DNA from: an uncultured Eubacteriales bacterium
GTDB lineage: Bacteria > Bacillota > Clostridia > Lachnospirales > Lachnospiraceae
NCBI GenBank assembly: GCA_900316115.1
Contig: ONBN01000020.1
Span: 1 to 36,052 of the forward strand
Direction: 5' to 3'
Length of the DNA stretch: 36,052 nt
The notes below the pieces were generated by a model. The model was given only the letters and a program-made list of their open reading frames with translations, was not told the origin of the DNA and made no database searches. Shown here one piece after another: positions 12,622-19,040 of this stretch. Positions within the stretch are counted from its first letter, which is position 1. Each line of letters starts with the position of its first letter. Made by a program: the position numbers and the translations under genes.

Positions 12622-13263
12622 TTATGAAAAATGCCTTTGTCCAGCCGGGAACAATTCCCGAAGCTTGGTAAGGGCATTTTTTTCAATGCGGGAAACATAG
12701 GAACGGCTGATCCCCATCTGCCTGGCGATTTCCCGCTGGGTCAGCTCCTGTTGTCCGAAAAGACCGAACCTGCAGCAGATGACCTGGTATTCCCTGGGAT
12801 TTAATACCTTATCTATAGACTGAAAAAGAATCTTTAAATCTTCACGTATGGAATAATCTTCCACCACATCGACCAGAGGACTTTCAATCACATCTAAAAG
12901 GCTGATCTCGTTTCCTTCTTTATCCGTGCCAATGGGTTCATAAAGAGAAATCTCCCTGGAAAATTTTTTCCTGGAGCGGAACATCATGAGAAGTTCATTA
13001 TCAATACATCTGGCGGCATAGGTGGACAAACGGGTGGATTTGCCAAGATCAAAGGTGGAGATCGCCTTGATCAGCCCGATGGTGCCAATGGAGATCAGAT
13101 CATCCAGGTCTTCCTCCCCACCCTGATATTTTTTTACGATATGGGCTACAAGACGGAGGTTGCGTTCTATCAGGATTTTCTTTGCCTCTTCATTTCCCTC
13201 CTGGTATTGCTGAAGATAGAAGCGTTCCTGTGCAAGGGTAAGGGGTTTCTGGAAAGTCTTCAA
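12622..13263 (-). CDS. sigK: Sporulation sigma factor sigma-K, apparently without pro-sequence
   Basis: RNA polymerase sigma factor of the SigE/SigK group, 213 residues from the chosen start. Region 2 includes RNLRLVAHIVKKYQ (34-47) and [17 protein letters not shown] (55-71); region 4 ends with the helix-turn-helix LTQREIARQMGISRSYVSRI (174-193). EISLYEPIGTDKEGNE is the linker typical of SigK. Sigma-K drives late mother-cell genes in sporulation. I chose TTG 13263 because GAGGTG lies 5 bases upstream and the predicted transcription start lies downstream of the only longer in-frame start (TTG 13305). The protein then starts at the family core (FQKPLT), so the hydrophobic pro-peptide of B. subtilis is missing. 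The gene is not split by a skin element. Confidence 0.88.
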   Translation of the reverse strand: MKTFQKPLTLAQERFYLQQYQEGNEEAKKILIERNLRLVAHIVKKYQGGEEDLDDLISIGTIGLIKAISTFDLGKSTRLSTYAARCIDNELLMMFRSRKKFSREISLYEPIGTDKEGNEISLLDVIESPLVDVVEDYSIREDLKILFQSIDKVLNPREYQVICCRFGLFGQQELTQREIARQMGISRSYVSRIEKNALTKLRELFPAGQRHFS

Positions 13264-13268
13264 GTCCG

Positions 13269-13274
13269 CACCTC
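13269..13274 (-). promoter_or_regulatory. Ribosome binding site that fixes the sigK start
   Basis: GAGGTG on the minus strand, fully complementary to the anti-Shine-Dalgarno CACCTC, 5 bases before TTG 13263. The longer reading from TTG 13305 has only a pyrimidine-rich stretch upstream. Confidence 0.65.
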
Positions 13275-13290
13275 GAAAGGGATTTCTATA

Positions 13291-13319
13291 TAGTCTATGC
13301 CGCAAAAAGGGGGCTGGTG
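13291..13319 (-). promoter_or_regulatory. Sigma-K-type promoter of sigK
   Basis: On the minus strand CACC (13319-13316), a 16-base spacer and CATAGACTA (13299-13291). This equals the published Bacillus sigma-K consensus mACm-N16-CATAnnnTA at every defined position. The -10 also fits 7 of 8 positions of the sigma-E form (CATACAnT), but no sigma-E -35 is seen. Start of transcription would be near 13284, upstream of the GAGGTG site. Confidence 0.65.
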
Positions 13320-13352: not shown

Positions 13353-13381
13353 TTGAAATAGAGCTGTAAAATCATTATAAT
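13353..13381 (+). promoter_or_regulatory. Sigma-A type promoter of the three-gene operon
   Basis: TTGAAA (13353-13358), a 17-base spacer and a perfect TATAAT (13376-13381), giving a leader of about 33 bases before TTG 13421. It points away from sigK, so the operon appears to be vegetatively expressed rather than sporulation-controlled. Confidence 0.75.
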
Positions 13382-13420
13382 GGAAACTAGCGATAACAAA
13401 AGACAGTAAGGTGAAGGATA

Positions 13421-16400
13421 TTGAAGAAAAAAACAGAACAGCTATTAAATGGAAAATTTGAATATGAACAGCCTCGTCTTCTTTTTTCAAAAGAAAAGAT
13501 TTCCCTGACCCTGAAGGCAGGGGAAACCAGACGGGGAGAAGTATATCTTGGAACCGAAGACAACTGCAGGATCCGGGGATATGTTACATCTTCCTCCAGA
13601 CGGCTGGTACCAGGTCTTGATAAGTTTACCGGTACAACGGTCTGCCTGCCATATGGTATTGACGCAGTAGGCATGGAACCAGGACAGGACCTGGAAGGCT
13701 GGCTCTGCTTTACCGCCAATATCGGAGAATACAGACTTGGTTTTGAGATACATGTAGAGAAAGAAGAATTAAAAACTGCGAAAGGCACAGTAAATGATCT
13801 GGAAGAATTCTGCCAGATTGCAAGAAAAGATTTTAGGGAAGCCTTTCGTATTTTTACAGATCCTTCTTTTTCCTCTTTGTTAAAGAATGAAGAAGATCAG
13901 AAAAAGGCACTTTTTGCAGGCCTGTCCAGACAGCCGGTAACTTATCAGCATCTGGAGGAATTTCTCATTGGCATAGGCATGAAAGAGCAGGTGAGCGTTT
14001 CCCTGAAGGATCCTGGTGCCAGATATTATGAAGTGAAGCAGGATATGCAGGAAGCCTTCCACATTCACAGAAGCGGATGGGGACATCTGCGTTTGGAAAT
14101 AGAAGCATATGGGGATTTCCTGGAGATTCCCAAGAAGGTTGTTACAGATGAAGATTTTATTGGCAGCTATTATGAGGTGGATTATCTGATCAGCTGTGAC
14201 AAGCTGGGGGCAGGCAATCAATTCGGTAAGATCGTTGTAAAAAGTCCTTATCAGCAGCTTACCTATGAGATTCTTGTGTCACGCACACCGGAAGTGGAGA
14301 TAAATGTACGGGTAGTGGAAGAGAAGCATAAGCTGGCCATTCTGAAAGACTACCTGGATTTCAGGTGCAATAAGATGGATTTTGCCACATGGGCTGCAAG
14401 TACTCATTATGAGCTGAACCAGCTGCGTGAGAATGGCTGCGATTATCCGGAATATCAGATGTATGAAGCCTTTCTGCTTCATCAGGAAGGAAATGATGAA
14501 GGGGCAGTGCAGATCCTGGAGAAATATCAGGACAAAGCTTTTACAAGGGATGATCTGGAATTTGCAGGATTTTATCTGTATCTGTGTGTGGAAACCGGGA
14601 TCTACAGGGATCAGGAGCAGGCTCTTCGGAGACTTCGTAATTTCCATATGCAAAAAGAGGATAGTTTTACTCTTTTGTGGGTATTGTTAAGAAAGGATCC
14701 TGAACTTTGCCAGTCTGCTTCCAAGGCGATTTTTATGATGGAAGAGCTTTATGAAAAAGGCTGTAAAAGTCCGTTTCTGTATCTGGAAGCATGGGAACTT
14801 GTAAGCAGGAATATTTCCCTTCTTCACAGGCTGAACGGATTCTGGGCACAGGTATTTCTGTTTGCTGCAAGAAGGGATCTTCTTACACAGGAACTGGCTA
14901 TGCGGATTGCCTATCTGTCCGGATATGAGAAGAATTACAACGAAAGCCTTTACCGTGTACTGGCAAAGGGCTATGAGGCATTTCCTTCTGAGGATACCCT
15001 GGAAGCAGTGTGCAAGTATATCATAAAAGGGAATCCAAGGAAGCCGGAATATTTTGTATGGTACAGCCGGGCTGTACAGCAGGGGCTTAGGCTTACCAGA
15101 TTGTATGAATATTATGTGGAGACTATGGATATGACAGGCCAGCAGGAGCTGCCAAAGCCTCTGCTTATGTATTTTACTTACAATAATGACACACTGGGAG
15201 ATGGCAAGAAGGCATTTATTTATTCAAGGGTGATCGCAGATAAAGAAACAGATCCTGTGAATTATAAGAGTTACCAGAAGAGCATGGCTGCGTTTGCAAA
15301 AAGAAAGCTGGCAGAGGGCTGTATGAATGAGCATTATGCAGCTATTTATCAGGAATTTCTTGCAGCACCTAAGACAAAGGAAGAGGCAGGGGCTATTGCT
15401 GGCAAGATGTTTACATACCGGCTTTTCTGTGATGATAAGAAGATCCGCAGTGTGATCGTAAAGCACAGCCAGCTGGTAGAGGAAGAGGTGTATCCTTGTG
15501 TACAAGGCGTTGCGTATCCAAGGATCTACACAGAGGATGCAGTGATCCTTTTCCAGGATGAGCAGCAGAGACGGTATGTTTCTACAGTTGGCTATAACCT
15601 GAAAAAGATGCTGGATGAAGAAGAGATGATGCCAGGTGTGCTGGCTCTTGGAGTGGAGGAGCCAGGTGTGCTGCTTCACTATTGTATGGAGCATCCGATT
15701 TCCAGGGATAATCTGGAACTTTTCCAGAAGCTGGCAGGACTTCCTGGAGTGAGCAGCGGCTACAGGAAAGAAATCCGCAAAGAGATCCTGGATTATTATG
15801 CAGGCCATATCCATGGGGAAGATCTGGACGGATACCTGAAAAAGCTGGACTGCAGGGAGTATGCGCTGGTAGACCGTAAGACATTGTTATCTGTGCTGAT
15901 CTCCAGAGGACTTTTCCCACAGGCAGCAGCCATTGTGGAAGAATTTGGATTTGAAGGACTGGATATGAAGAGCCTTCTGAAGCTGGTAAGCCGGATGATC
16001 ATCCGTTGTGAAATGGCAGAAGATGAAGAATTGCTGGCACTGGCATCTGAAGTATACAGAAGTAGTATTTATGATGAAGTGATCCTTCAGTATCTGATGA
16101 AATACAGATTCGGGCCAATGGATGAGATGTTTTCCATCTGGAAAAGTGCCAAAGGCTTTGATATGGACACTTACGATATGGAAGAAAAACTGCTGGGGCT
16201 TCTGATCTTTACCTCTGATTATCGAAAAGAGGGAGAGAGCATTCTGGCAGATTATATTAAGAATAAAGGTAAAGAAAGGCTGATCGGTGCTTATCTGACA
16301 CAGGTGGCATATGGGATTTTTGTAAAAGAATTTTCTATGAGCAGCCTTGTAAAAAAATCCCTGAAAAAAGCATATCTGGAAAAGTGGCCGGTAGATCTGG

Positions 16401-16960
16401 TGTGCCATCTGGCACTTTTTAAAGAGCTTGTAAGGGAAAAAGGGAAAAGCGAAGAGATTCTTTCCATGGAGAGAGAGCTTCTGAAAGAATGTATGGACCG
16501 GAAAATGGAGTTTGCCTTTTTCCATAAACTGCCTGCAGATCTTCTCAGCCCTTATCAGCTGGATGATAAGACCTATGTGGAGTTCCACGGCAATCCTAAA
16601 GCAAAGGTTACTTTATTTTATGCACTGGATACAGGTCTTGGAGCAGAACCGGAATACAAAAACGAACCGCTTCACGATATATATGAAGGGATCCGGACAA
16701 AGTCTTTTACACTTTTCTACGGAGAGACTCTGCATTATTATTTCCAGTCAGAATATAAAGGGAAAATAAAAAAGACTGCAGAACGTACCATGACCATGAG
16801 CCGGGTGGAAGGCGCACCAGGCAGCAAATATCAGATGATCAACCAGATCCTGTCAGCAAGAAGGCTGGATAAGGATGCAGAAGTATCTGCAAAGCTGAAG
16901 CAGTATCTGCGGCAGGAACAGTATGTGAATGAGATGTTTGTCATCAGGAAAGAGGACTAA
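13421..16960 (+). CDS. Large DUF5717-like protein: beta domains plus helical repeats
   Basis: An 1179-residue protein that I place, from memory, near the Lachnospiraceae DUF5717 family; function unknown. No signal peptide or membrane segment is visible, so it is probably cytosolic. Residues about 15-110 look like an all-beta sandwich ending in GEYRLGFEIHVEKE, and about 185-293 like a second one (RSGWGHLRLEI, GKIVVKSPYQQLTYEILV). Residues about 300-1040 are alpha-helical with many repeats of the TPR or HEAT type. Residues from about 1050 (KAKVTLFYALDTG to the end) are again beta-rich. The start is TTG 13421 with AAGGTGAAGG upstream. It heads a tight operon with an Hsp70-like and a TPR protein (gaps of 3 and 13 bases). 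A scaffold or chaperone-like function is inference. Confidence 0.75.
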   Translation: MKKKTEQLLNGKFEYEQPRLLFSKEKISLTLKAGETRRGEVYLGTEDNCRIRGYVTSSSRRLVPGLDKFTGTTVCLPYGIDAVGMEPGQDLEGWLCFTANIGEYRLGFEIHVEKEELKTAKGTVNDLEEFCQIARKDFREAFRIFTDPSFSSLLKNEEDQKKALFAGLSRQPVTYQHLEEFLIGIGMKEQVSVSLKDPGARYYEVKQDMQEAFHIHRSGWGHLRLEIEAYGDFLEIPKKVVTDEDFIGSYYEVDYLISCDKLGAGNQFGKIVVKSPYQQLTYEILVSRTPEVEINVRVVEEKHKLAILKDYLDFRCNKMDFATWAASTHYELNQLRENGCDYPEYQMYEAFLLHQEGNDEGAVQILEKYQDKAFTRDDLEFAGFYLYLCVETGIYRDQEQALRRLRNFHMQKEDSFTLLWVLLRKDPELCQSASKAIFMMEELYEKGCKSPFLYLEAWELVSRNISLLHRLNGFWAQVFLFAARRDLLTQELAMRIAYLSGYEKNYNESLYRVLAKGYEAFPSEDTLEAVCKYIIKGNPRKPEYFVWYSRAVQQGLRLTRLYEYYVETMDMTGQQELPKPLLMYFTYNNDTLGDGKKAFIYSRVIADKETDPVNYKSYQKSMAAFAKRKLAEGCMNEHYAAIYQEFLAAPKTKEEAGAIAGKMFTYRLFCDDKKIRSVIVKHSQLVEEEVYPCVQGVAYPRIYTEDAVILFQDEQQRRYVSTVGYNLKKMLDEEEMMPGVLALGVEEPGVLLHYCMEHPISRDNLELFQKLAGLPGVSSGYRKEIRKEILDYYAGHIHGEDLDGYLKKLDCREYALVDRKTLLSVLISRGLFPQAAAIVEEFGFEGLDMKSLLKLVSRMIIRCEMAEDEELLALASEVYRSSIYDEVILQYLMKYRFGPMDEMFSIWKSAKGFDMDTYDMEEKLLGLLIFTSDYRKEGESILADYIKNKGKERLIGAYLTQVAYGIFVKEFSMSSLVKKSLKKAYLEKWPVDLVCHLALFKELVREKGKSEEILSMERELLKECMDRKMEFAFFHKLPADLLSPYQLDDKTYVEFHGNPKAKVTLFYALDTGLGAEPEYKNEPLHDIYEGIRTKSFTLFYGETLHYYFQSEYKGKIKKTAERTMTMSRVEGAPGSKYQMINQILSARRLDKDAEVSAKLKQYLRQEQYVNEMFVIRKED

Positions 16961-16963
16961 GGG

Positions 16964-18244
16964 ATGAATGAGATTCGGGACTTGATTATTGGAATTGACT
17001 TTGGTAAAGAATACTCCCAGATCTGTTACTATGACAGAAAGGGTGATGAACCCAGATCTGTTTCCATGAAGGTGGGAAGCGAGCAGTTTGAAGCCCCCAC
17101 TCTTCTCTGCCACAGAGGAAAGCATAAAGATTATTGTGTAGGCCTGGAAGCAGAATATTTTGCCAGAGACAGAGGCGGTGTGCTGATTGATGGTCTGTAT
17201 GATCTGTGCAGAAAAGAAGAAGCAGTACAGATCAGCGGAGAGTCAAAGCAGCCCTGGGAACTGCTGGCGGTATTTTTGAAAGGTATGCTGAAGTTTCTTG
17301 GTGTAATGGATGTGGTGAAAAATACCAAATGCCTTGTGATCACAGTGAAGGAGCTGGATCAGGTGCAGGTGGCCAATATACAGAGAGCATGCCAGGCACT
17401 GGGATTTCCAGAAGACAAGTATCTGCTTCTTGATTATGGAGAAAGCTTTTTCTATTATATTATGACCCAGAAAAGAGAAACCTGGAACCGAAGCGTAGGC
17501 TGGTATGATTTTACAGGGGACAAGGTACGGTTCCACAAGCTGGTGATGCAGGGGGGAGGCCCTGTACTGGTACAGTTGGAAGATCTGGGAGAGAGCAGCC
17601 TTACCGGGCTTTTAACAGAAGAAGCAGAAGCTTCCAGGGAAAAGGCTGCCCTGCAGCGTGATTCGGATTTTCTGGCTTTTATCCAGAAAACTCTGGGAAC
17701 GGATCTGTATTCCAGTATCCAGATCACTGGCAGCGGATTTGATCCCCAGTGGGCAAAGCAGTCTGTACGGCTTTTGTGCCAGCAGAGAAGAAAGGTGTTT
17801 TTCGGAAATAACCTTTTTGCAAAAGGAGCCTGCGGGGCTGGCAAAGAAAAAACAGAGGACAGGAATCTGAAAGGCTACCGTTATCTCAGCCCATCCCTGG
17901 TGCTTACAGATGTGGGGATGGAGATGCGGGTGATGGGTTCACCTACCTACTATCCGCTGATCCACGCAGGTGTGAACTGGTATGAATGTAAAGCCAGCTG
18001 TGAACTGATCCTGGATGACACGAAGGAACTGGTATTTGTGGTCAGCACCATGGGTCAGGAAGGGAAAAAACGTATTTCCATGGGGCTTCCCGGACTTCCG
18101 GTGCGCCCCAACAAAACCACCAGGCTTTCTTTGGAACTGCAGTATATTTCCAAAGATTTGTGCAGGATCACAGTAAAGGATCTTGGCTTTGGGGAAATGT
18201 ATCCATCCAGCGGCAAAGTATGGAAGGATTCCGTAAAATGGTAA
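16964..18244 (+). CDS. Hsp70/actin-fold (ASKHA) protein, DUF5716-like, with degenerate nucleotide motifs
   Basis: A 426-residue protein with the layout of an Hsp70-type nucleotide domain. Phosphate-1 motif: IIGIDFGKEYSQICYY (8-23). A connect-like stretch LVITVKELDQVQVANIQ (124-140), followed by a helix and LLLDYGESFFYYI, parallels VITVPAYFNDAQRQ...NEPTAAALAY of DnaK. Phosphate-2 is degenerate: WYDFTGDKVRF (180-190) instead of DLGGGTFD. The adenosine-side motif appears as ITGSGFDPQWAK (254-265), then FFGNNLFAKGACGAG (279-293). The last about 120 residues are beta-rich. ATP binding is plausible; hydrolysis uncertain. It starts 3 bases after its large partner. It lacks a DnaK substrate-binding domain and no DnaJ or GrpE gene is near. 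Confidence 0.75.
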   Translation: MNEIRDLIIGIDFGKEYSQICYYDRKGDEPRSVSMKVGSEQFEAPTLLCHRGKHKDYCVGLEAEYFARDRGGVLIDGLYDLCRKEEAVQISGESKQPWELLAVFLKGMLKFLGVMDVVKNTKCLVITVKELDQVQVANIQRACQALGFPEDKYLLLDYGESFFYYIMTQKRETWNRSVGWYDFTGDKVRFHKLVMQGGGPVLVQLEDLGESSLTGLLTEEAEASREKAALQRDSDFLAFIQKTLGTDLYSSIQITGSGFDPQWAKQSVRLLCQQRRKVFFGNNLFAKGACGAGKEKTEDRNLKGYRYLSPSLVLTDVGMEMRVMGSPTYYPLIHAGVNWYECKASCELILDDTKELVFVVSTMGQEGKKRISMGLPGLPVRPNKTTRLSLELQYISKDLCRITVKDLGFGEMYPSSGKVWKDSVKW

Positions 18245-18257
18245 GGAGGAACAAGGA

Positions 18258-19040
18258 ATGAGCGGATATATTTTATGTCAGACAAAAAAAGCCAGATCTC
18301 CTTATTTTATCCAGAATATAAGTACCAATATCTATACACTAGAAGAATTGTGCTACTATCTTTATCACAATCTTTATCTGGTGGATCAGACTATTATTAA
18401 TGAAGCACTATGCAGCTGGATCGCCCAGGAACTGGAACTTCCAAGGCTGGCTGCAAAGCTTCGCCCAAATCTGGGCAAGTTTGCAAGTGCAGAGGATGTT
18501 CTTTATCCTGTTTTCAAGGAGATCAATTATCTTACTTATGAAGAGCTTCGCACCTTAAATGCAAAGCTTTCCAAAATGGATGCAGAAGCACCGGTAGTCC
18601 GTGAGAAGAAAAAGGGAGATGCCCTGGTAGAGAACGGGATGCTGGTAAGTGCTATCCACGTATATGAGAAACTTCTGCAAAAAGAGGGACTGGAGCAGGG
18701 ACAGGCAGGGCTTACTGCCCAGATTTATCACAATCTTGGGTGTGCCTGCAGTTATCTTTTCCAGATGGAAAAGGCAGTGGATTGTTTCTGGAAGGCTTAT
18801 CAGCTGGATGAAACGGATCAGTCCCTGATCACATATCTTCTTGCTTATAAAAGCATACGGACACCGATTGAATATGAAAGCCGCCTTACTGCACTGAATG
18901 TAAGCGATCAGGTAAAGGAGGCTGTGCAGCAGGCTCTGGAACGGTTTGCAAAGAAGCCGGAGATACCGGTATATTCCCAGCATATTGATGAATGTCTGGA
19001 AAAATTTACAAAAGAATACCACAGAAGCACAGGCTCCTGA
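18258..19040 (+). CDS. TPR-containing protein, third gene of the operon
   Basis: A 260-residue cytosolic protein. Residues 1-105 are a helical region of unknown family (YTLEELCYYLYHN is notable). Residues about 116-195 form two TPR-like helix pairs: GDALVENGMLVSAIHVYEKLL and AQIYHNLGCACSYLFQMEKA followed by VDCFWKAYQLDE, where NLG and the A-x-x-x-F-x-x-A-Y spacing are typical of TPR. The C-terminal 60 residues are helical and charged. AAGGAGG precedes ATG 18258, 13 bases after the Hsp70-like gene. It probably bridges partners of the complex; direct function is unknown. Confidence 0.75.
   Translation: MSGYILCQTKKARSPYFIQNISTNIYTLEELCYYLYHNLYLVDQTIINEALCSWIAQELELPRLAAKLRPNLGKFASAEDVLYPVFKEINYLTYEELRTLNAKLSKMDAEAPVVREKKKGDALVENGMLVSAIHVYEKLLQKEGLEQGQAGLTAQIYHNLGCACSYLFQMEKAVDCFWKAYQLDETDQSLITYLLAYKSIRTPIEYESRLTALNVSDQVKEAVQQALERFAKKPEIPVYSQHIDECLEKFTKEYHRSTGS

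Follow-up and report, generated by a model that had tools for sequence, protein, structure and literature searches.

A reduced chaperone operon of the Lachnospiraceae and its degenerate Hsp70: a probable ATP-independent scaffold complex

Introduction

What is the role of a three-gene operon that sets an Hsp70-like protein between a giant helical-repeat protein and a tetratricopeptide repeat (TPR) protein? The question is raised by a contig from an uncultured member of the Lachnospiraceae, a dominant gut family (GenBank ONBN01000020.1, assembly GCA_900316115.1; the window is the whole stretch of 36,052 nucleotides that was analysed). The initial annotation of this window described a three-gene operon and proposed that it encodes a dedicated chaperone-like or assembly complex. 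The operon is borne out as described, with all three genes on a single strand and intergenic gaps of 3 bases (DUF5717/DUF5716) and 13 bases (DUF5716/TPR). We consider it probable that its products form a chaperone-derived, ATP-independent holding or assembly scaffold complex, which would be membrane-bound in most relatives. Judging by homology and gene order, the operon is a reduced descendant of a longer, four-Hsp70-type chaperone operon. The three genes of the window are as follows.

13421..16960, + strand: DUF5717 gene, 1179 aa, TTG start; Pfam PF18984 and PF18983
16964..18244, + strand: DUF5716 gene, 426 aa; Pfam PF18980
18258..19040, + strand: TPR-protein gene, 260 aa; Pfam TPR_8

DUF5716, a diverged Hsp70

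The middle protein of the window matches the Pfam model DUF5716_C at an E-value of 5e-97, with 324.9 bits against a gathering score of 34.7. Its AlphaFold2 model, based on an alignment (A5) of the window protein with 60 of 63 non-redundant DUF5716 sequences, has a mean predicted local distance difference test (pLDDT) score of 90.5 and a predicted template modelling (pTM) score of 0.88. The top Foldseek match of DUF5716 is DnaK (7krv; E 6.1e-21, template modelling (TM) score 0.59 by query, 530 alignment columns), and Ssz1 (6sr6) stands at rank 17 (E 2.8e-17). The acetate and sugar kinase/Hsp70/actin (ASKHA) fold that had been read from the sequence at the outset is thus confirmed, and is of the Hsp70 type. 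Moreover, a DUF5716 profile aligns with the intact Hsp70s of the order over 405 columns, reaching the end of the beta substrate-binding domain (SBD-beta), at E 3.8e-14; a PF00012 search of the window genome at E 0.001 does not report DUF5716. The following parts of the Hsp70 layout can be placed on the window gene.

16991..17020, + strand: phosphate-1 loop GIDFGKEYSQ, with Asp and Gly retained and Thr-Thr lost, according to alignment counts
17507..17530, + strand: degenerate phosphate-2 loop DFTGDKVR, replacing DLGGGTFD, from alignments
17723..17752, + strand: adenosine-type motif ITGSGFDPQW, its first Gly present in 119 of 119 DUF5716 proteins
17888..18241, + strand: SBD-beta-like domain of eight predicted strands, aligned to the C-terminal half of Hsp70 and ending in GLP.RP..TTRL...DLGFGE

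Conservation of these motifs was scored against the window genome's own DnaK in DUF5716 proteins and in two groups from sister families of the order, i.e. intact Hsp70s and pseudo-Hsp70s (loci L171 and L172, one basal family member, being excluded). The catalytic lysine at DnaK position 70 and an intact D.GGGT motif are each present in 41 of 42 intact sister Hsp70s and absent from all 17 sister pseudo-Hsp70s and all 119 DUF5716 proteins, while the threonine of the phosphate-2 loop occurs in 41/42, 0/17 and 4/119, respectively. The phosphate-1 aspartate is found in 41/42, 17/17 and 111/119, and the first glycine of the adenosine motif in every member of the three groups (42/42, 17/17 and 119/119), with G256 and F259 invariant and W263 nearly invariant in alignment A2. 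The single miss among the 42 intact Hsp70s is a row gapped at those columns, which is taken for the fragment L168_6340. The lobe-II stretch that includes subdomain IIB, the region of DnaK contacted by GrpE, is 110 aa long in the genome's own DnaK and has medians of 115 aa in intact sister Hsp70s, 109 aa in sister pseudo-Hsp70s and 56 aa in DUF5716; it is 57 aa long in the window protein where, with the preceding stretch counted in, approximately 70 residues are missing. SBD-beta measures 71 aa to the GLP motif vs 72 aa in DnaK. Past the GLP-type motif, 51 residues follow in the window protein and 197 in the genome's own DnaK, and the model of DUF5716 terminates in strands, without an alpha-helical lid (SBD-alpha). 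The single hydrophobic segment of the protein (residues 100-118) coincides for the most part with a helix (residues 97-110) in the model of the nucleotide-binding domain.

On its sequence and predicted model, DUF5716 is a lid-less, diverged Hsp70 composed of a nucleotide-binding-domain core and a beta substrate-binding domain. The lost residues, along with the lost lobe-II segment, argue that it cannot run an ATPase cycle. The term 'Hsp70-like ATPase', which the initial annotation had applied to known partners of TPR proteins, is therefore ill-fitting here, as none of the 119 members has the catalytic lysine or the D.GGGT loop.

A longer operon in sister families

A search of 56 genomes from the order (5 from the Lachnospiraceae, 51 from outside it) with the DUF5716 profile gives strong Hsp70-like matches (best match at E 1e-12 or better) in 24 of the outside genomes, often in adjacent open reading frames (ORFs); in 8 further outside genomes the matches are weak and lie mostly in DnaK-sized frames. 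Twenty-four sister-family regions were read, representing 23 of the 24 strong genomes as well as G460, whose match is weaker. These regions carry a long operon, seen at L166:1672-17142 and at 23 other loci (L165, L167-L170, L173-L184 and L189-L194). At L166, its genes are, in order:

Gene 1, 427 aa: N-terminal part of DUF5717 (Pfam)
Gene 2, 907 aa: C-terminal part of DUF5717 (Pfam)
Gene 3, 559 aa: Hsp70 (Pfam E 1.8e-77)
Gene 4, 645 aa: protein with a C-terminal GrpE domain (Pfam E 1.4e-14)
Gene 5, 535 aa: DUF5716 orthologue (DUF5716_C E 1.8e-25, HSP70 E 1.9e-16)
Gene 6, 546 aa: second Hsp70 (Pfam E 2.5e-57)
Gene 7, 719 aa: Hsp70 with a C-terminal VWA domain (Pfam E 2.5e-95 and 1.3e-10)
Gene 8, 393 aa: TPR protein (many TPR models)
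Gene 9, 402 aa: coiled-coil membrane protein, ninth gene of the operon

Based on one profile per gene and on the genes found, gene order is the same, on one strand, in 24/24 sister-family loci. All eight core genes up to the TPR gene were found in 10 of the 24, several of them being broken into short ORFs in L168, and the membrane-protein gene was detected at 5 of these 24 loci. Both DUF5717 parts were found at 13 loci, as two separate genes in 10 and as one fused gene in 3. The short and long operons are connected by orthologous profile matches: DUF5717 matches the two sister-family halves (E 1.7e-34 and 5.4e-75), DUF5716 matches the sister pseudo-Hsp70 (E 9.1e-49, 425 columns), and the window-type TPR protein matches the ~390-aa TPR protein of the long operon across its N-terminal two thirds (E 2.6e-29, 179 columns). 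The order DUF5717 N, DUF5717 C, DUF5716, TPR is common to both.

In a tree of 80 rows, the 36 DUF5716 and sister pseudo-Hsp70 rows split with a support of 100/100 from the 44 others, which comprise three groups of intact sister Hsp70s, an odd Hsp70 of 499 aa and the genome's own DnaK. L168, a long-operon locus, is placed as the nearest outgroup of DUF5716 (support 100/99). Since the tree carries a long-branch warning, weight is put on the split into two sets and not on the finer placing. A 499-aa Hsp70-like protein encoded off the operon at L172:8180-9679 (G494), a basal family member, sits on a long branch of this tree. Because DUF5716 is orthologous to a sister pseudo-Hsp70 that is already degenerate, the degenerate Hsp70 would thus predate the reduction of the operon. 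That change went from long to short is suggested by the shared gene order, the presence of the long form in many families and the place of L168. At L183:5816-10915, only DUF5717 N, DUF5717 C and the pseudo-Hsp70 were recognised, and L173, from the same family, has the long form; L183 looks like a second, independent reduction.

Within the window genome, DnaK is the only full-length canonical Hsp70 match to PF00012. A weak match to the HSP70 model (E 5.7e-9) lies in a 337-aa frame with an in-frame TAG, at G000:C49:9347-10048 (L186) of the same genome. The long GrpE-domain protein was found in 0 of 200 Lachnospiraceae genomes; in 12 of them its profile gives weak matches, all at its GrpE-domain end, and the ORFs concerned (201-276 aa) have the size of ordinary GrpE. 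Across 249 genomes of the phylum, 16 of the 17 matches to this profile also fall at the GrpE-domain end (ORFs of 184-246 aa), and the seventeenth, in G121, spans columns 311-435 in a 514-aa ORF at E 1.9e-4.

Linkage and distribution of the short operon

Linkage was surveyed over 121 loci: the window, 40 regions drawn from DUF5717 matches in family genomes, and 80 named loci. The 40 regions are spread down the DUF5717 match list without its weakest matches, with G257, G315 and G362 added deliberately for their odd results. A DUF5716 pattern gave 589 named loci, of which the best 80 were taken; as top matches, they resemble one another more than randomly drawn loci would. The trio is complete in 119/121 loci, always on a single strand and in the same order, and the 116 unfused loci have median gaps of 18 and 13 bases between its genes. 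Thus, the genes travel together in relatives, rather than occurring mostly apart. One of the two exceptions, L053, is a contig end and the other, G287, is a real split. In three loci (L058, L059 and L070), DUF5716 and the TPR protein are fused into an ORF of 685-713 aa, in which a near-full-length DUF5716 is followed by the TPR protein; the fused proteins share 22-35% identity, L070 being only 22-23% identical to L058 and L059. Fusion of neighbouring genes is a classic sign of touching partners. L059 was included owing to a 713-aa frame in the DUF5716 scan and, because G315, one of the fusions, was included deliberately, 3/121 is not an unbiased fusion rate. Alignment A1 holds 29 of 41 available rows, A2 holds 32 and A3 holds 21; L050, in which DUF5717 is broken into two ORFs, possibly by an assembly error, is excluded from A1.

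DUF5717 and DUF5716 are each present in 195 of 200 Lachnospiraceae genomes drawn from different genera, and the short operon is close to family-wide. Two matches per genome occur in 4 genomes for DUF5717 and in 2 for DUF5716, the other positives being single. In the sample of 249 phylum genomes, both the DUF5717 C model and DUF5716_C score over their cut-offs in just four genomes, namely the four Lachnospiraceae sampled; a sub-threshold DUF5717 match (E 6.5e-4) occurs in one other genome. This sample tells little about close kin because it has only one genome from another family of the order, and other families of the order do have homologues, some of them over the Pfam cut-offs.

DUF5717, the TPR protein and a fourth, membrane protein

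The first protein of the window matches DUF5717_N and DUF5717 at E 1.1e-255 and 2.9e-91, scoring 851.1 and 306.3 bits against gathering scores of 25 and 25. Its predicted model (mba845746d059, residue numbering beginning at codon 2), built from an alignment (A6) of the window with 42 of 65 non-redundant DUF5717 sequences, has a mean pLDDT of 86 and a pTM of 0.56. Two N-terminal immunoglobulin (Ig)-like beta sandwiches and a long helical, TPR-like solenoid are present in the model, in agreement with the two beta domains and solenoid recognised initially, and a C-terminal beta domain is added to them.

13478..13792, + strand: first N-terminal Ig-like beta sandwich of DUF5717 (model residues 19-123)
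13994..14284, + strand: second N-terminal Ig-like beta sandwich of DUF5717 (model residues 191-287)
14297..16561, + strand: helical (TPR-like) solenoid of DUF5717, with a beta insert at ~15413-15607 (model residues 292-1046)
16568..16795, + strand: C-terminal beta domain of DUF5717 (model residues 1049-1124)

Foldseek neighbours of the solenoid include the TPR solenoids of Ctr9, Ski3 and Naa15, at low TM-scores. Because scores are low (at most 0.16 by query among the 50 matches listed), DUF5717 is named a TPR-like solenoid with Ig-like ends and nothing further. Its modelled architecture suggests that it is the large scaffold of the trio.

In the window, Pfam recognises one repeat in the TPR protein (TPR_8, E 6e-6, barely over the cut-off), whereas many TPR models match its relative in L166 (393 aa); the TPR pairs described at first are evident in the relative rather than in the window protein itself. 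At L133, the TPR gene lies in two ORFs, possibly by an assembly error. A fourth gene follows directly 3' of the TPR gene in 98/121 loci, with a median gap of 11 bases, and L133 is a 99th locus with this gene, 938 bases on. It encodes a protein of ~394 aa with coiled coils, as read from the sequence, and a hydrophobic hairpin, and at least two Kyte-Doolittle segments are seen in 95 of the 97 copies longer than 350 aa. The gene is missing from 17 loci that have room for it, the window included, and, by the Kyte-Doolittle measure, the window's DUF5717 and TPR protein have no hydrophobic segment. Thus, most relatives appear to have a membrane-bound version, and that of the window looks cytosolic by loss. 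The initial description of the proteins as cytosolic therefore suits the window, which lost the membrane protein, better than its relatives, most of which encode it.

Promoter and genomic neighbourhood

The strong vegetative promoter that had been proposed can be located upstream of the operon.

13353..13381, + strand: sigma-70-type promoter TTGAAA-17-TATAAT, matching 11 of 12 consensus bases, by consensus match alone

It ends 39 bases upstream of the DUF5717 gene and is the top-scoring of 12 such sites in 7 kb, a number at chance level (11.2 expected). The sequence GAAGGA at 13413-13418 precedes the TTG start. Based on Pfam, a divergent sigma factor and a U32 peptidase are encoded upstream of the trio, and an amino-acid-type ATP-binding cassette (ABC) transporter of three genes, an adenylosuccinate-lyase-type gene and a LemA gene are encoded downstream. 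No GrpE, DnaJ, defence or secretion gene was found in the Pfam scan of seven window neighbours. The initial statement to that effect holds for these neighbours, although the sister families have a GrpE-domain gene inside the homologous operon. PADLOC, run on the three trio proteins only, gave no match at E 0.1, and NCBIfam gave nothing relevant for the trio.

The divergent sigma-factor gene lies directly before the operon (12622-13305, - strand). Membership of a spore or stress regulon was considered and rejected, as this gene seems peculiar to the window: relatives lie near DUF5717 in only 2 of 120 other loci (phmmer E 1e-20), at 1.0 and 5.8 kb from DUF5717 and on its strand. A link to purine genes was likewise set aside; purC-, purF- and purB-like genes, nearly all downstream and named by reading their sequences, occur within 4 kb in 51, 44 and 47 of the 121 loci, respectively, which looks like plain synteny. 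Finally, a SpoIID-like protein with a peptidoglycan-binding end, assigned by reading its sequence, is encoded at L094:749-2074 (- strand), and relatives occur within 4 kb upstream in 56/121 loci, on the same strand as the trio in 24 and on the opposite strand in 32.

A holding or assembly scaffold and its alternatives

In the reading that we favour, DUF5717 would be the frame, with Ig-like domains at one end, the TPR-like solenoid, and the further beta domain at the other end. DUF5716 would be a fixed binding module, having the shape of Hsp70 and a beta substrate-binding domain and no ATPase cycle. The TPR protein, in view of the three gene fusions, would sit against DUF5716, and the coiled-coil membrane protein would be the membrane anchor where present. 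Together, the proteins would make up a single stable complex, able to bind clients or partner proteins with no turnover of ATP and possibly passing bound proteins on to DnaK. With the catalytic residues, the exchange-factor gene and the lobe-II segment all lost, an Hsp70 cycle is unlikely to operate within the complex. The proposal of a dedicated chaperone-like or assembly complex thereby gains from the Hsp70 homologue with SBD-beta, from the sister operon with its three intact Hsp70s and GrpE-domain protein, and from linkage, and has to be revised where the ATPase motifs are gone.

A number of observations weigh against this holding or assembly scaffold. Loss of the catalytic lysine is compatible with ATP binding, which it does not exclude. 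Absence of the lid is not special to DUF5716; intact sister Hsp70s are short here too, with a median of 60 residues past the GLP-type motif, and lid loss is therefore a trait of the whole operon family. Operon linkage and gene fusion indicate functional coupling and not chaperone action, and the neighbouring genes name no client. Linkage itself is broken in G287 (L045 / L187), which has DUF5717 on one contig and DUF5716, the TPR protein and the membrane protein on another. The membrane protein is dispensable, as whole-genome searches were negative in the window genome and in 16 others without a copy at the locus; of the 20 genomes searched, the remaining 3 have it, and the window genome is 91% complete. 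The long operon is incomplete in 14/24 loci, owing to contig ends or to genes that are absent, broken or too diverged to find. Furthermore, 4 of the 200 family genomes lack both Pfam families, and one more lacks DUF5717 and one more DUF5716, the latter two genomes being 67-68% complete; among the four, the sister-family profile finds a diverged DUF5717 in G346 (E 2.6e-52) and a weak fragment match in G376 (E 1e-10).

Three other explanations, which overlap with the favoured one and with each other, need to be weighed against the same evidence. DUF5716 might be an atypical Hsp70 co-chaperone in the manner of Ssz1, positioning DnaK and clients on the DUF5717/TPR scaffold while DnaK supplies the ATP turnover. 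The lid-less, catalytically degenerate state of DUF5716, the appearance of Ssz1 in its fold search and the finding of no full-length canonical Hsp70 match besides DnaK in the genome would all suit such an arrangement. However, DnaK itself ranks above Ssz1 in fold similarity, the usual fourth gene encodes a membrane protein, no J-domain protein is present among the seven neighbours scanned (a genome-wide J-protein search was not made) and DUF5716 has its lobe-II segment deleted, a deletion that is not known from Ssz1. On balance, we regard this role as unlikely. A purely structural or membrane-organising complex, in which chaperone parts have been turned into a static scaffold without a client role, e.g. 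in a cell-envelope or division structure, strikes us as similarly doubtful. It would account for the lost ATPases, for the Ig-like tandem with its long solenoid, for the coiled-coil membrane partner in 98/121 loci and for the SpoIID-like gene upstream in 56/121, but that neighbour could be plain synteny, SBD-beta keeps both its length and its closing motif, and the window and others have kept the trio and lost the membrane protein.

A conflict or defence system, related to the GAP1-N2 systems that combine HSP70, GrpE, FNIII/TPR and vWA proteins (PMC7159879), is the least probable of the alternatives, and we give it very little credence. The parts list of the long operon is similar, with its Hsp70s, GrpE domain, VWA domain, Ig-like domains and TPR proteins. 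However, the GAP1-N2 domain was found in 0 of 8 genomes tested, PADLOC had no match for the three trio proteins, and the trio is near-universal in its family, whereas defence systems are usually patchy in distribution. The holding or assembly scaffold, derived from a chaperone and free of an ATPase cycle, is the explanation that we retain as probable.

Implications

The DUF5716 and DUF5717 families, listed in Pfam as of unknown function, gain an origin and an architecture; the Hsp70 origin and the long relative operon come from the present analysis. The trio also leads to a longer machine that combines GrpE and VWA domains with four Hsp70s, three of them intact and one dead. A bolder scenario, which we hold as quite possible and short of probable, is that one bacterial order has a multi-Hsp70 chaperone machine equipped with a VWA domain, a membrane anchor and a GrpE-type factor of its own, and that the Lachnospiraceae shed its three ATPases together with the exchange factor; the dead Hsp70, scaffold and TPR protein would have been retained as a family-core ATP-independent chaperone complex. 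The short and long operons represent a natural experiment, in which the same scaffold occurs with and without Hsp70 motors and exchange factor, and the pair makes it testable whether an Hsp70 assembly retains function after loss of the ATPase cycle.

Comparison with known systems

A search of PDB sequences returned nothing useful, and literature searches by name, Pfam accession and combined terms found no paper treating DUF5716, DUF5717 or the short operon and, among the matches listed, no description of the long one; the name search listed a paper on curcuma compounds. In a survey of DnaK paralogues, the main text has no word beginning with Lachnospir (PMC11019930). As members of Pfam DUF5716_C and DUF5717, the window proteins are plain, and the Pfam descriptions of both families give their function as unknown. 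Compared with DnaK and the Hsp70 family (PF00012), DUF5716 has the same fold of nucleotide-binding domain and SBD-beta and aligns with intact Hsp70 profiles, but it is without the catalytic Lys, the D.GGGT loop, ~70 lobe-II residues and the lid.

Two further systems resemble the operon in part. In GAP1-N2 GTPase-centric systems, HSP70, GrpE, vWA and FNIII/TPR parts are reported from gene neighbourhoods in Firmicutes, among others (PMC7159879), and the long operon has similar parts; unlike them, the present system has the GAP1-N2 domain in 0 of 8 genomes tested and is near-universal in one family. Ssz1 of the yeast ribosome-associated complex is described as binding ATP with little or no hydrolysis and as having no SBD-alpha (PMC8476630). 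Like DUF5716, it combines a degenerate ATPase and a missing lid with an expected stable partner, but in yeast that partner is a J-protein and the site is the ribosome, whereas in the present operon the place of the partner is taken by the TPR protein and the solenoid protein, often joined by a membrane protein. Of published ideas, the HSP70/GrpE theme described for the GAP1-N2 systems (PMC7159879) comes nearest, and the nearest working model is Ssz1 (PMC8476630).

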